A DNA stretch of 40,663 nt, from the NCBI GenBank assembly GCA_021801905.1, contig JAKABJ010000003.1, positions 1 through 40,663 on the forward strand. Direction: 5' to 3'. The notes under the pieces were generated by a model. That model worked only from the letters and a program-made list of their open reading frames with translations. It had not been told where the DNA came from and ran no database searches. The DNA comes from Microcaldota archaeon (GTDB lineage Archaea; Micrarchaeota; Micrarchaeia; Micrarchaeales; Micrarchaeaceae). Shown here piece after piece: positions 4,901 through 23,480 of this stretch. Position 1 is the stretch's first letter. Each line of letters begins with the position of its first letter. Both the position numbers and the translations under genes were made by a program.

Positions 4901-4913
4901 AAGCCTTTTAATA
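4901..4913 (+). promoter_or_regulatory. putative archaeal BRE/TATA promoter for micro-ORF 4945-4974
   Basis: AAGCCTTTTAATA resembles other promoter-like boxes in this window (AAGCCTTTTAAAT near 12071, AAGCCTTTTTATA near 30597). Confidence 0.4.
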
Positions 4914-4944: not shown

Positions 4945-4974
4945 ATGGGAGGCGGAGATCCAAAACCAACTTAA
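4945..4974 (+). CDS. putative 9-aa micropeptide MGGGDPKPT
   Basis: ATG GGA GGC GGA GAT CCA AAA CCA ACT TAA preceded by AGGTGA SD-like site (4934-4939) and TATA-like box (4901-4913). Confidence 0.3.
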   Translation: MGGGDPKPT

Positions 4975-5101: not shown

Positions 5102-6424
5102 CTATTTATCCTGTGCCTCGTTTTTAATATCTGCTAGTCTTCTAAAACCAGGGCAGCCAACCAAGTAATCTGTTATTATTGAACTGCCTATCTCCACACC
5201 CCTTACATTCCTTCTAATCCACAAATCCGCATCTTCCTGTGAATATCCAAATACAGGTGTGAGAAGTATCTCTCCATAAGGTGCAGATGCATCTCCTGCA
5301 ATAGTAAACCTGTTGAAAGGAGAGTTGCCTGCATCGTCCCTCACATATGTTATATACTTCAGCCTATCCTGATTAAAAGAAACAACGTCAAACTGCTTAA
5401 GATAAATTAATAATGAAAACCTGCAATTCGGCTTTGTAGCAACAATTGTTGCCCTCTCTATTACTTTATTTTCAATAAGCTTGCGGTAGGTGTGCTGTGC
5501 ATTCCCTCTCGAGAGGCGGTGTTTTTCATCTATTGCAGTAAATTCCATTCCTCCTTCAGAGTTTAATTCACGAAGCACAGCGTACTCGCTTGGAAGAAGC
5601 TGATCTTTTTCCCTTCTCGGCGAATCCCTGCTCTTTTTCCAGACCCTGCTCTCAAGTAACTTGAAGAATTCATCCCTTAATGGAATATAGCCGTGCCATT
5701 CCCTGAGATAGCCTACCTCCCACGAAGAGGATATGCCTGAAAAAAACCTATTTGATCTTATCCTATAAATTATTTTTTCAACTTCATCCACATTCTCTGC
5801 CAGCATGTAAATCAGAAGATCATGGTCTCCTTTCATAATGGCTGCCATCTGTATTAGAGGCTCTGCAGCAAGCAGGCTTTTTATATTCGAATAATCAGGC
5901 TGTTTAGAAAAAAATTTTACTACTGCAATAAACCTGTAAAAGCCGAATATTTTAGGATATATCTCTATGGTTTTCCTTATATCATATTTTTTGAAGAGGC
6001 TCTTGATCCTATAATAGGCAGAGCCTGTACTAATGCCTGCATTTGATGCAATTATTGGAACAGGCATTCTTGCATCCCTGCTTAAAGATTCCAATATGAG
6101 AGAGTCTACATCGTCAACATGTGCGCTTTCATACTCCCTTCCGGATCGCAAACCTCTCTCTATATACTCGTTAATGTTTTTCGCGCGCGTCTTTTCGGTT
6201 CTATGAACTGCCTTATGAAATTCGCCTAAGTTATCTATCCATCCTATGTAGAATTGCCTTTTTATCCTATTTGATTTCCTGTCAGCATCTACTATGTACT
6301 TGTACTCGTATGCGCAGAATCTCCCTCTTATCATAGACAATGTGACCTTGTTATTGCTCTCCGTACGTAATTTTTCGAGCGTGGCTGCAACACTCTCTGG
6401 GTATTCCATATGCTTCCTTGCCAT
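5102..6424 (-). CDS. double Lrp/AsnC-like winged-helix regulator with N-terminal YIG-type domain (paralogue A)
   Basis: DVDSLILESLSRDARMPVPIIASNAGISTGSAYYRIKSL resembles an Lrp/AsnC HTH; second half repeats a wHTH-like architecture; clear homologue of 21618-22955. Confidence 0.7.
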   Translation of the reverse strand: MARKHMEYPESVAATLEKLRTESNNKVTLSMIRGRFCAYEYKYIVDADRKSNRIKRQFYIGWIDNLGEFHKAVHRTEKTRAKNINEYIERGLRSGREYESAHVDDVDSLILESLSRDARMPVPIIASNAGISTGSAYYRIKSLFKKYDIRKTIEIYPKIFGFYRFIAVVKFFSKQPDYSNIKSLLAAEPLIQMAAIMKGDHDLLIYMLAENVDEVEKIIYRIRSNRFFSGISSSWEVGYLREWHGYIPLRDEFFKLLESRVWKKSRDSPRREKDQLLPSEYAVLRELNSEGGMEFTAIDEKHRLSRGNAQHTYRKLIENKVIERATIVATKPNCRFSLLIYLKQFDVVSFNQDRLKYITYVRDDAGNSPFNRFTIAGDASAPYGEILLTPVFGYSQEDADLWIRRNVRGVEIGSSIITDYLVGCPGFRRLADIKNEAQDK

Positions 6425-15160: not shown

Positions 15161-15261
15161 AGCCTGGAGAGGGAATTGAACCCTCAACCTCATGCTCTCT
15201 TTGCTTTTTGAAATTTCAAAAAGTTTACAAGGCAAGCGCTCTGCCATTGAGCTACCCAGGC
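15161..15261 (-). tRNA. tRNA-Thr(TGT) with intron next to the anticodon
   Basis: Reverse complement GCCTGGGTAGCTCAATGGCAGAGCGCTTGCCTTGTAAA[intron]...GAGGGTTCAATTCCCTCTCCAGGC; anticodon arm region about 29 nt too long; exact splice sites uncertain. Confidence 0.8.
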
Positions 15262-19557: not shown

Positions 19558-21288
19558 TTAGAACCTCGGCTTGATTGGCTCAGGAACTCCCCTGCCATTA
19601 ACGAATACACTCTCCCATGTGCCGTCAGGATGCCTTCTTACAATGTTAAAACCTTTCGGAAGCCTTCCACCAAGCAAAACCTTATTCTGCTCTGTAAGAT
19701 CTTCAGTAGTTATTGTTCGCTCAGCATCTCCCAGTATCAATTTGGAATGCAGGCTTACATAGGCTGCCGGAGTGAGCTCAATGCCATCAGCCTCCAATTC
19801 TGTTGATATTATTATATGCTCTCTTGATTTCTGGCTGGCTTTTATATCGGTCATTAAAGCTTTTGCAACAAGCCCGCTTCCGTAGAAAACAAGGACCGCT
19901 GGCTTGTTTATCACAAGTTCTCCAAAATGGTGCTGGTCGCTCACTTTTCTTAGCAGGCTTGCCAATGCTACTGGCAGAGATGTAGTGTATGAATTTCCTA
20001 TATTTGACGGAAGGTTTAGCGCATCATCAATATGCAGCCTGCTCAAAAATGAGGTGAATTCTGGCTGCTTCATCACCTTTTTGATCCATTTAAGCTCCTC
20101 CTTTATGTCTTTATCGCTCTCCAAATAAGATATTACCTTGTTTTCAGCATCTCCCTCGAATAAAGATAATTTCTCAGTTATCAAATCTGTAAGCCTTTTT
20201 CCTTGAAGCGGGTCCTCCCCCACATCCCCTCTTTTCTGCATTTGCTCGTAAAGCTTTGGATTAAACATTTTCATATAGTGGATAAAAAGATACCCTGCAC
20301 CCTCCTTTGCTTGTTTTGGGTATGGCACGTGGCTTATGAATGCATACAGGTCGGCAAAAGATAAGCCCTCGTATTTTTCATTTATTTTTTTCAGGACAGA
20401 GCTCATAATTCCTGAAATCATATCTCCTATAGGCTTTGGCACTATCCTGCTTTCCATTAGAGATTGGCTAATGGGTGCTCTTGCAGAATATGCGGCTTCA
20501 AGGTTTTCAACCGCCTTTGCAACTGCATAAACGTAGCCTATATTGGAAGCCTCCCCATGAACTATCGGGGTGCAATCTCCGAATTTGGTGAAATCAGAGA
20601 GAGGCATGCTAAACCTCCCATACCCTCTGTTATATTTTATGTCTACAAGCTCTGGATCCTTAGTGATCCACATTAAAGCCGCTGCAGCCCCTTGCGTTTT
20701 CTCAGCATTTTTTGCTCTTCTTGGATTGTAGACTGCAGTATCAGCGGTTATAACAACTGCGGATTCGTTGCGGCCAAATGAGGATGCTGTATACACGGAA
20801 TCAACCGCATCTGATAAGCTAAGGCCTCCTCCCGCGCAGGCAAATGTGACCTGCTTTATCTCTATATTCTTAAGCGCTTGCGCATATTTTTTGTATCTTT
20901 CAATATCCTCATTCAAAAGCCTTGACAACGCCATTCCTAGTGCTGGAGCTGCCTCTGGCCTGCTATAATCGTCATTGCTCTCAGTTCCAAAGTATATGCT
21001 CTTCGGCATCTCAGCAAAGAACTTTTTCTCCATATCCGGCCATGCAGAAACCCTTTTTATGAACAGGTATATGGCATCGGCCACCATTGTCACATTGCTT
21101 TGGGAGAGAGTAGGGAGCCTTTGTTTTTGAACTCCAAAATGCTCTATTTTGCTTACCTCCTCTCCTGTAACCTCCGATAGGCCTTTTGATGATATGTATG
21201 TGGAAGGAGTCGATATCACTATCATATTTATTCCGATATGAACCTTCCTTCTTTCAGAAGCTTCAACAGAGCTATTCTTTGTTGCCAT
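19558..21288 (-). CDS. hydroxymethylglutaryl-CoA synthase-like protein, unusually long (576 aa)
   Basis: FACAGGGLSLSDAVDSVYTASSFGRNESAVVITADTAVYNPRRA (Cys region), GNSYTTSLPVALASLL and VLVFYGSGLVAKA match HMGS-type thiolase-fold motifs. Confidence 0.75.
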   Translation of the reverse strand: MATKNSSVEASERRKVHIGINMIVISTPSTYISSKGLSEVTGEEVSKIEHFGVQKQRLPTLSQSNVTMVADAIYLFIKRVSAWPDMEKKFFAEMPKSIYFGTESNDDYSRPEAAPALGMALSRLLNEDIERYKKYAQALKNIEIKQVTFACAGGGLSLSDAVDSVYTASSFGRNESAVVITADTAVYNPRRAKNAEKTQGAAAALMWITKDPELVDIKYNRGYGRFSMPLSDFTKFGDCTPIVHGEASNIGYVYAVAKAVENLEAAYSARAPISQSLMESRIVPKPIGDMISGIMSSVLKKINEKYEGLSFADLYAFISHVPYPKQAKEGAGYLFIHYMKMFNPKLYEQMQKRGDVGEDPLQGKRLTDLITEKLSLFEGDAENKVISYLESDKDIKEELKWIKKVMKQPEFTSFLSRLHIDDALNLPSNIGNSYTTSLPVALASLLRKVSDQHHFGELVINKPAVLVFYGSGLVAKALMTDIKASQKSREHIIISTELEADGIELTPAAYVSLHSKLILGDAERTITTEDLTEQNKVLLGGRLPKGFNIVRRHPDGTWESVFVNGRGVPEPIKPRF

Positions 21289-21516
21289 AAAATTATCTTG
21301 AATGATTTAGAAAGCAGTTTATTAAATGACGCATTCTAGTTAGACTATTAACGAACTTATAGGCAAGCGCATGCCAAGCGCTTCCGGTGTGATAGCAACC
21401 CTTACGGCAAAGGCATATCCATGCAAACAATCCAATTTTGCATTGTTACTGCTCTACTCGTAATTAATACCATAGGTATTTAAACTCTACTATCCCAGTT
21501 TGAAATATTAATTCAT

Positions 21517-21561
21517 ATGATGATTAAAATGGTGTATGCAATGGGAGGAGAAGGAAATTAA
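21517..21561 (+). CDS. putative 14-aa micropeptide MMIKMVYAMGGEGN
   Basis: ATGATGATTAAAATGGTGTATGCAATGGGAGGAGAAGGAAATTAA; TATTTAAA TATA-like box at 21478-21485; hairpin plus T-rich tract downstream. Confidence 0.3.
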   Translation: MMIKMVYAMGGEGN

Positions 21562-21589
21562 CCGGTCTATTTTAATACGATATTCATAG

Positions 21590-21620
21590 CCTAGAGTATC
21601 TGCTATTCTAGGTATTTTTA
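21590..21620 (+). terminator. hairpin plus T-rich tract
   Basis: CCTAGAGTA-TCTGC-TATTCTAGG (9-bp stem, one G-T) followed by TATTTTTA. Confidence 0.5.
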
Positions 21621-22955
21621 TTCTTGTAATCTTTTATATAGGTGCGTCTTTTTAACATCTATTTTTCTATAGCCCAGCTCACCTACTATAATATTCGAAA
21701 CCATAGAAGTTCTAATCTTTGTCCCTTTCGCTGCATGTAATAGCTCTGATTCTAACTTTTCCAAATCTCCCTCTTTATATAAAGGCGCAATCACTATCAG
21801 CCCATAAGGTGAACCTATGTCACCAGAAAATATAAATCTATTAAGGGGAGTATCTTCCTCCGCAAGCCTGTATTTTAAGTATTCTTTTTTACTGTTGTTA
21901 AATTTACTAATTTCCATTTGTTCTAGAATAAATACAGCCGTGCCTTTGATTGGGGGCTTGGCCATTGTTATGGTGGCATTTCTAATACTTTCATTATCAA
22001 GTAACTGGTTGTATGTGTATCTAGCCGAGTCTTTTTTAAGTCCATATTTCTTATCTATTAAATTAAAAGGAACTTTGCTATTCTGATTAAGTTCTCGCAA
22101 AGTTGCATACTCCCTGAAAAAGAATTGTTCTGGTCTTTTTCTCTGAGCGTTATCTCGCTCTCTCCTCCAAATGCGCTCCTCCATCAAATCAAAGAATTTA
22201 TCTCTAAAAGGTATAAATCCATATGATTGCGAATGGTAAGTCACATGCCACTCCGCTTTATAATTTGCTAATAGTTCATCGGATCTCAGTTTGTAGACTA
22301 TTCCTTCAGCTTCAAGCGGTCCTTGTGCAAACATAAAGATAAAAAGGTCATAAGCCCCTCTAGTTGAAAGAACTAATCTTATTCTAGGGTCACCCTCTAA
22401 GAGTTTCTTAATCTCAAGAAAGTTGGGTTTCTCTTCAATGAATCTTGCCATTGCTATGAACTGATAATGGTGAAATTGTTCCAGAGTCATATCTATAGTA
22501 TATTTGATTCCAAACTTTTCTTCCAAATTTCTTATATGATTAGCAATGGCCGATTCCGAAACTCCTAATTTTTTGCTTATATTCGATGTGCTCTCTCTAG
22601 CATTCCCGCTTAATTCCGTAAGTATTCCACTGTCAATCCCAGTGTCTGTTATTATACTCTCCCGGTCTTCTTCTATTGCAGACCACGAGATCTTGCCGCC
22701 ATAAGATTCAATTATTGCCTTTGCCTCTTCAAGGCGTTTTTCTCCCTTAGTAGCTGCTTTCTTTACAAAAGCTCCCTCTCTCGTTATTTTCCCTATATAC
22801 TCCGATTCCGTTTTCCTTTTCTTTGTGGCTTTATCGTAGAGACTTTTATGTCTATAAACGTAATAATTTCCATTTATGAATTCAAGTGCGATATAAAAAT
22901 CATACTCCTCTCTTAGTTTCAAGTATGTCCTCTCTATCGCATCCGATATTTTCAT
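21618..22955 (-). CDS. double Lrp/AsnC-like winged-helix regulator with N-terminal YIG-type domain (paralogue B)
   Basis: LTELSGNARESTSNISKKLGVSESAIANHIRNLEEKFGI resembles an Lrp/AsnC HTH; shares YGFIPFRDKFFDLMEERIW, EYATLREL, PLNRFIFSGDIGSPYG with paralogue A. Confidence 0.7.
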   Translation of the reverse strand: MKISDAIERTYLKLREEYDFYIALEFINGNYYVYRHKSLYDKATKKRKTESEYIGKITREGAFVKKAATKGEKRLEEAKAIIESYGGKISWSAIEEDRESIITDTGIDSGILTELSGNARESTSNISKKLGVSESAIANHIRNLEEKFGIKYTIDMTLEQFHHYQFIAMARFIEEKPNFLEIKKLLEGDPRIRLVLSTRGAYDLFIFMFAQGPLEAEGIVYKLRSDELLANYKAEWHVTYHSQSYGFIPFRDKFFDLMEERIWRRERDNAQRKRPEQFFFREYATLRELNQNSKVPFNLIDKKYGLKKDSARYTYNQLLDNESIRNATITMAKPPIKGTAVFILEQMEISKFNNSKKEYLKYRLAEEDTPLNRFIFSGDIGSPYGLIVIAPLYKEGDLEKLESELLHAAKGTKIRTSMVSNIIVGELGYRKIDVKKTHLYKRLQE

Positions 22956-22964
22956 AATAAGATA

Positions 22965-23024
22965 TTAGCATTCACTATATTTATACATTTCCATTTTTAA
23001 TGCTAAATTTACGCTATATATAGC
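22965..23024. promoter_or_regulatory. palindromic operator-like region of regulator B
   Basis: TTAGCATT (22965-22972) / AATGCTAA (22999-23006) flank the minus-strand TATA-like TATAAATATA; perfect 12-bp palindrome GCTATATATAGC at 23013-23024. Confidence 0.5.
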
Positions 23025-23134
23025 ATATACAAGTATGTATATTTTGGAAAATCGTACGTATACTTTCTTAAAAATGATTTAGTTTCAATAAACTACCTCT
23101 ACTAATCCATATATACTCCAAACTTCATAATTAT

Positions 23135-23287
23135 ATGAGGGTGAAGAAGGTGAGTAGTATGAACGGAGGAAATAATTTTTCTAAATATGGTAGGAATACC
23201 AACCCATTCTCAATCTATCCCAATCCTCTGTTATGCCCGATTCACCCCTTTAAGATCAATAGGTGGGGCAATGAAAATACTCAATAG
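23135..23287 (+). CDS. putative small protein, 50 aa (or 42 aa from 23159)
   Basis: MRVKKVSSMNGGNNFSKYGRNTNPFSIYPNPLLCPIHPFKINRWGNENTQ; SD-like AAGGTGAG precedes the internal ATG at 23159; overlaps the next ORF. Confidence 0.35.
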   Translation: MRVKKVSSMNGGNNFSKYGRNTNPFSIYPNPLLCPIHPFKINRWGNENTQ

Positions 23288-23480
23288 TACAAAATCTGTG
23301 GCATCAGGCAAGAAGGATAAATGCGCATACAAGTGCTGGATGTGCGGTAAAGGGCATAATAATTCAATAGCATTCCTTTGGCATATAAGCGCGTGCGAAT
23401 TGGAGACTACCGGAAAATCAGAACTATTGGTCAGGGAGAAAATGGTCTTGTCAAACACAAATGCGATAGCCGGGATTTGA
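23271..23480 (+). CDS. small zinc-finger-like protein (69 aa)
   Basis: MKILNSTKSVASGKKDKCAYKCWMCGKGHNNSIAFLWHISACELE..., CxxC...HxxxC arrangement; SD AGGTG 5 nt before the ATG; stop codon lies in the antisense of tRNA-Gly. Confidence 0.45.
   Translation: MKILNSTKSVASGKKDKCAYKCWMCGKGHNNSIAFLWHISACELETTGKSELLVREKMVLSNTNAIAGI

Follow-up and report, generated by a model that had tools for sequence, protein, structure and literature searches.

Most doubled Lrp-type regulators in one order of Micrarchaeota face a glycine-rich peptide gene

In streptococci, the Group III SHP genes are convergent with rgg and overlap its 3′ end, and the leaderless communication peptides are 8–10 residues long (PMC13361665). 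Regulators of the Lrp family bind their effectors in the RAM domain, altering either the oligomer state or DNA binding; in the known cases, amino acids and small metabolites serve as effectors (PMC2995911). The archaeal locus described here shares features with both. As in the Rgg/SHP and Rgg(RopB)/leaderless peptide systems of the RNPP type, a very short peptide gene adjoins its own regulator gene, and, as in Rgg systems, several paralogous peptide–regulator pairs are present per genome. There are, however, several departures. First, the regulator is of the Lrp/AsnC type and does not combine HTH_3 with TPR-like repeats as Rgg, ComR, PlcR and AimR do; Pfam gave no match to HTH_3 or TPR-type repeats in regulator B, regulator A or the family alignment, and the fold is Lrp-like. 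Secondly, glycine makes up about half of these hydrophilic peptides, whereas Rgg peptides are hydrophobic. Thirdly, and unlike Rgg systems, the peptide genes occur in tandem polycistronic copies, the host is an archaeon, and no SBP_bac_5 or OPT importer was found here. By analogy, the system would work as Rgg does with convergent SHPs or with leaderless peptides, yet it is not a member of the RNPP group.

The regulators resemble the archaeal Lrp/AsnC (feast/famine) regulators in that a RAM effector domain comes after an AsnC-type winged HTH. They differ from the usual members in their two HTH-RAM modules per chain, an extra N-terminal domain, up to about 10 paralogs per genome and a dedicated peptide gene. 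Tandem Lrp-like modules in one chain are also a feature of the siroheme decarboxylases NirDL/AhbAB, which are the best PDB fold matches, but those are enzymes of haem d1 and haem synthesis and no peptide gene is known alongside them. The family alignment has no near-invariant His among its conserved columns. Several near-identical micro-ORFs of about 11 codons lie on one transcript in the Drosophila gene tarsal-less/polished rice (pri), although pri is a eukaryotic developmental gene that is not beside a regulator gene, and its peptides are unrelated. A search of the open-licence literature returned no description of such a micro-ORF/regulator system, and this looks like an undescribed archaeal peptide-plus-regulator system.

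The micro-ORF units facing regulators B and A

The window, that is the whole 40,663-nucleotide stretch of DNA analysed, corresponds to contig C3 in an archaeal genome of 643 kb, 91.5% complete. Between regulator B and an HMG-CoA-synthase-like gene (19558–21288, minus strand) is a gap of about 330 nt that holds a micro-ORF unit with the following features.

21477–21484, plus strand: TATA-like box TATTTAAA, archaeal, of the putative micro-ORF promoter, recognised in the sequence
21494–21507, plus strand: leader block CCCAGTTTGAAATA, a candidate operator, kept in the closest modules (L038, L179 and L195)
21517–21561, plus strand: 14-codon ORF MMIKMVYAMGGEGN, an alternative longer start, open in the sequence
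21531–21534, plus strand: GGTG, Shine-Dalgarno-like, 5′ of the conserved ATG and at the same position in L179
21541–21561, plus strand: micro-ORF MGGEGN, the conserved peptide core, with coding-type conservation across the family
21589–21620, plus strand: 10-bp hairpin and T-rich tail, the probable transcript 3′ end; the hairpin is not conserved
21618–22955, minus strand: regulator B, with an N-terminal domain and two Lrp/AsnC-like HTH-RAM modules (Pfam, AlphaFold2, Foldseek and HMM comparison with the PDB)

The first-pass annotation had placed a self-contained plus-strand unit directly against the 3′ end of regulator B, and this is borne out: the minus-strand stop codon of B occupies 21618–21620, which makes the unit convergent with B, and the T-run of the unit overlaps the B 3′ end. 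Some of its details need revision. The box is present, one nucleotide to the left of the 21478–21485 given previously, and the hairpin, which occupies 21589–21613 and is followed by ATTTTTATTC, has 10 bp and not 9 (terminator-like sites average 0.3 in shuffles of the region). The 14-codon ORF ending in MGGEGN is open as described (ATG ATG ATT AAA ATG GTG TAT GCA ATG GGA GGA GAA GGA AAT TAA), being lengthened to that size by in-frame ATGs at 21517 and 21520, but the start is another matter. The relative L179 has ATTAAAATGGTG....AATGGGCGGAGATGGAAAC in common with B and is without the ATGs at 21517–21522, so the conserved part is MGGEGN (ATG GGA GGA GAA GGA AAT TAA), which starts at 21541. The longer start at B is probably over-extended, and the peptide would be MGGEGN, possibly with an N-terminal extension. 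Its homologues are MGGDGN (L179), MGGDGP (L038) and LGGEGD (L040). The TTTAAA is 38 nt from the first ATG and 62 nt from the conserved one. No conserved RNA fold of the micro-ORF strand was found in B (z −0.11), and the hairpin is not common to the relatives that were read, several of which have a T-rich tract 3′ of the ORF. A leader-peptide attenuator was rejected, since the antisense strand of the regulator lies 3′ of the micro-ORF and there is no same-strand gene downstream at B for a leader peptide to serve.

A second unit faces regulator A.

4906–4913, plus strand: likely TATA box TTTTAATA, 39 nt 5′ of the ATG and conserved in the ortholog L077
4934–4939, plus strand: AGGTGA, Shine-Dalgarno-like, read from the sequence; L077 has AGGTGAATACAATG
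4945–4974, plus strand: micro-ORF MGGGDPKPT, whose ortholog in genome G008 (L077) is MGGGGKPS
5102–6424, minus strand: regulator A, a paralog of B, to which it is 33% identical (Pfam)

The MGGGDPKPT ORF is 157 nt away from the regulator A stop. A TATTTAAA beside its ATG was rejected as the TATA box, the usual TTTAAA-to-ATG spacing being mostly 36–55 nt.

Pairing and covariation of peptides and regulators across the order

Full-length relatives of the regulator were gathered from whole genomes (157 in total, from one archaeal order), and the 300 nt after each regulator stop were scanned for convergent ATG ORFs of 4–30 codons, with at least 25% Gly as the threshold for a Gly-rich product. In the discovery set a convergent Gly-rich micro-ORF is present at 62 of 111 regulators, compared with 10 of 206 other genes at the same loci (Fisher p ~1e-24); Markov-simulated sequence gave about 10 of 111. 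When a TATA-like box was required as well as a Shine-Dalgarno-like motif, the counts were 32/111 regulators and 0/206 other genes. Identical criteria applied to a held-out set of 46 regulators, mostly from previously unused genomes, gave 31 regulators against 1 of 30 other genes (Fisher p ~9e-9), and only 1 of 46 when the opposite strand of these regions was read. A whole-genome pattern of TTTAAA, 20–50 nt, and ATGGGNGG... has 14 matches in 37 genomes, 7 of them at the 3′ ends of these regulators. Exact TTTAAA is found within 80 nt in 58 of 86 units, mostly 36–55 nt 5′ of the ATG and with A-rich DNA just before it, and GGTG or AGGTGA recurs ahead of the micro-ORFs in the family. By strict criteria about one third of the regulators are without a micro-ORF. 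The repeated regulator-plus-peptide module that had been proposed from A and B alone is present at most members of an order-wide family, and ATG-started GG-rich ORFs were found when homologous loci were searched for them; in this order of Micrarchaeota, most doubled Lrp-type regulators face one glycine-rich peptide gene or as many as seven in a row.

The micro-ORFs are conserved in the manner of coding sequence. Differences at codon positions 1, 2 and 3 number 83, 90 and 162 in 50 sister pairs (p 4e-8), and 13, 3 and 19 in 12 close pairs. Genome G012 has three paralogous units (MGGSGD, MGGSGGD and MGGGGGQ) with a nearly identical leader, whose ORFs vary mainly at third positions and by one codon. 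L028, L046 and L053 each contain 5–7 tandem micro-ORFs, most with their own GGTG ribosome-binding motif; those of L046 include MNGGNGGGG, MNGGNSGGG, MDSGNGGGS, MNGGNGGGS and MNGGNSGGS. Across 111 units the composition is 49% Gly with few hydrophobic residues and a median length of 8, the range in the family being about 5–25 residues.

The peptides also follow their regulators. The last residue is identical in 30 of 50 sister-regulator pairs, whereas 300 random pairings gave 7 on average and never more than 15, and clades of the regulator tree have their own peptide types (M.G[AGS]Y; ending in HG; ending in P; MFGPE...GGGG). Pentapeptides of the form M.G[AGS]Y are present at 10 of 157 regulators and none of 206 control genes. 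This covariation could in part reflect the shared ancestry of a linked locus, and not recognition. We note that the M.G[AGS]Y subclade, with penta- to hexapeptides such as MDGAY, MNGSY, MEGSY, MTGAY, MNGGY and MVGGY, comprises L018, L065, L071, L074, L078, L089, L095, L098, L171 and L189.

Two explanations bear directly on these patterns. That the ORFs arise by chance, because an ATG happens to fall in AT-rich intergenic DNA or as antisense noise at the regulator 3′ end, draws on the commonness of short ORFs and on the unremarkable fold of the B region; replication in the held-out set and the controls refute it at the level of the family, and we regard it as scarcely credible. Alternatively, translation itself could be what matters (through peptidyl-tRNA drop-off, Gly-tRNA use or ribosome capture), or else a GGA-rich RNA or DNA motif. 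GGA is indeed strongly preferred, accounting for 284 of 447 Gly codons in the micro-ORFs and 1171 of 4044 in the regulator genes, where GGC is preferred, and there are many strong SD motifs and tandem copies; the changes, however, are mainly at third positions with the amino acids retained, and Gly is replaced, by clade, in the types that are not poly-Gly (M.G[AGS]Y, ...P), and a function of this kind is very improbable. The pairing, the third-position bias, the shared last residues and the tandem arrays together make these look like real, regulator-specific peptide genes.

The regulator family, its promoters and the origin of module B

Regulator B is 445 amino acids long, and in the AlphaFold2 model (mean pLDDT 91.9) an N-terminal domain is followed by two successive HTH-RAM modules. 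Residues 107–145 match HTH_AsnC-type above the curated cut-off; in the family, Pfam places an AsnC-type HTH in 56 of 58 members and a RAM (AsnC_trans_reg) effector domain after the HTH in 21 of 58. The best PDB matches are to the tandem Lrp-like NirDL (4ch7 and 4czc), together with many Lrp-family regulators (Foldseek and HMM). The regulator is a fused variant of the Lrp/AsnC family, unlike the single HTH-RAM monomer of about 15 kDa. Up to about 10 paralogs are present per genome, and of 295 sampled genomes from the phylum, 128 have a strong match, 127 of which are in two families of one order; no plasmid record matches. Regulators A and B share 31–33% identity and the nearest relatives of B (58–63%) are in another family of the order; A and B, at 33% identity, are old paralogs and not a duplicate pair of recent date.

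Module B itself looks like a lineage-specific insertion (about 21360–23458) at the 3′ end of a tRNA gene, judging from two related genomes: in G005 the HMG-CoA-synthase-like gene adjoins the same tRNA-Gly with no intervening regulator, while its neighbour in G008 is another gene altogether. The DNA-level match in G008 covers only 21280–21358, the start of the HMG-CoA-synthase-like gene, and the micro-ORF has no match there because module B is absent; to take this as non-conservation of the micro-ORF would be a misreading. A 32-nt segment of L008 (1501–1532; contig C18 6230–6261) just past a tRNA gene matches, at 91%, the end of the regulator B coding sequence, and is possibly a decayed remnant of a regulator module. 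Rfam identifies only tRNAs among known RNA families in the window; one of them (15161–15261, minus strand), missed by ARAGORN, is about 100 nt long and so probably bears an intron.

The leader of the micro-ORF is a plausible site of regulation. Members of a clade keep similar leader blocks, such as the CCCAGTTTG common to B, L038, L179 and L195, and in one subclade a perfect inverted repeat, CATTCCATTTTGGAATG, lies 3′ of the TATA box; because of these, the micro-ORF promoter is probably a target of the regulator, with a candidate operator in the leader. An operator common to the micro-ORF leader and the regulator upstream region was not found (mean rank 0.52). Nor did a palindromic operator emerge at the TATA box, whose flanks were overall no more complementary than those of other TTTAAA sites. 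The same leader blocks and inverted repeat, and the presence of the peptide's own promoter beside the regulator, would suit a peptide that is an output, acting on some other target such as RNA polymerase, the ribosome or a partner protein, with the regulator merely controlling its promoter. However, clade-specific peptides that track the regulator fit recognition better than one common cellular target, and we consider such an output role unlikely.

On the other side of regulator B there is a further element.

23107–23250, plus strand: divergent promoter-like element and possible structured RNA (TATATA ... CATAATTATATG)

At B and 53 other loci, the 5′ side of the regulator has a divergent TATA box and CATAATA, and then an apparent structured RNA with pairing between its ends across more than 60 nt, with a mean folding z of −2.1 across the 54 loci and perfect stems of at least 9 bp in 7 of 54 (about 0.5% in shuffles). 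At B, GGGTGAA (23139–23145) is able to pair with TTCACCC (23241–23247); the structure is weak here (z 0.2) and strong in many relatives. Small ORFs of varied kinds lie within this RNA or 3′ of it. The ORF at 23187–23480, divergent from regulator B, encodes a small CxxC...H...C zinc-finger-like protein (CWMCGKGHNNSIAFLWHISAC), and similar fragments are in the same place beside further regulators, among them L018, L066 and L035.

A proposed role for the peptides

Where a micro-peptide gene is private to a RAM-domain regulator, lies beside it and covaries with it, the peptide is most simply read as the effector of that regulator. We think it reasonably probable that 21541–21561 is a real, independently expressed Gly-rich peptide gene and that its product serves the adjacent regulator as a dedicated effector. 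The peptide would be produced in the cytoplasm from its own promoter and bound by a RAM effector domain of the neighbouring regulator, and the bound peptide would alter how the regulator assembles or how it binds DNA, both at the promoter of the micro-ORF and at other targets; tandem micro-ORF copies would give a higher dose of peptide. Against the effector reading, a ligand that is half glycine is unusual, and the Lrp effectors known so far are amino acids and small metabolites.

Where such a peptide would act is suggested by what accompanies it. The first-pass annotation had likened the module to peptide quorum systems, in which, as with streptococcal Rgg, the peptide exits the cell, neighbours import it, and the cognate regulator is activated. 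The layout is that of the convergent SHPs and the size that of leaderless communication peptides (PMC13361665), and distinct peptides on distinct regulators are reminiscent of pherotypes. However, the peptides have neither a signal sequence nor a hydrophobic part, the SBP_bac_5 and OPT oligopeptide importer families have no match in the 91.5% complete genome, and no dedicated transporter or peptidase was noted next to the locus. The likeness to quorum sensing is not upheld: the lack of a signal sequence and of detectable SBP_bac_5 or OPT makes signalling between cells less likely and favours action inside the producing cell, and we view a quorum-sensing role as decidedly doubtful.

With an intracellular effector as the preferred reading, we think there is a fair case that these loci represent an archaeal form of peptide control unrelated to RNPP, in which tandem Lrp/AsnC regulators are paired with private, translated effector peptides of about 5–25 residues, the pairs having been amplified and having diverged so that each genome holds several independent ones throughout one order of Micrarchaeota. 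If this is correct, these conserved, tandem-amplified and regulator-matched genes of 5–9 codons, which are invisible to normal annotation, would rank with the smallest known genes for proteins, and archaea would gain a class of peptide-controlled regulators built on the Lrp/AsnC fold. It would also hint at the role of a heavily duplicated regulator family in genomes of about 0.6–1.2 Mb.
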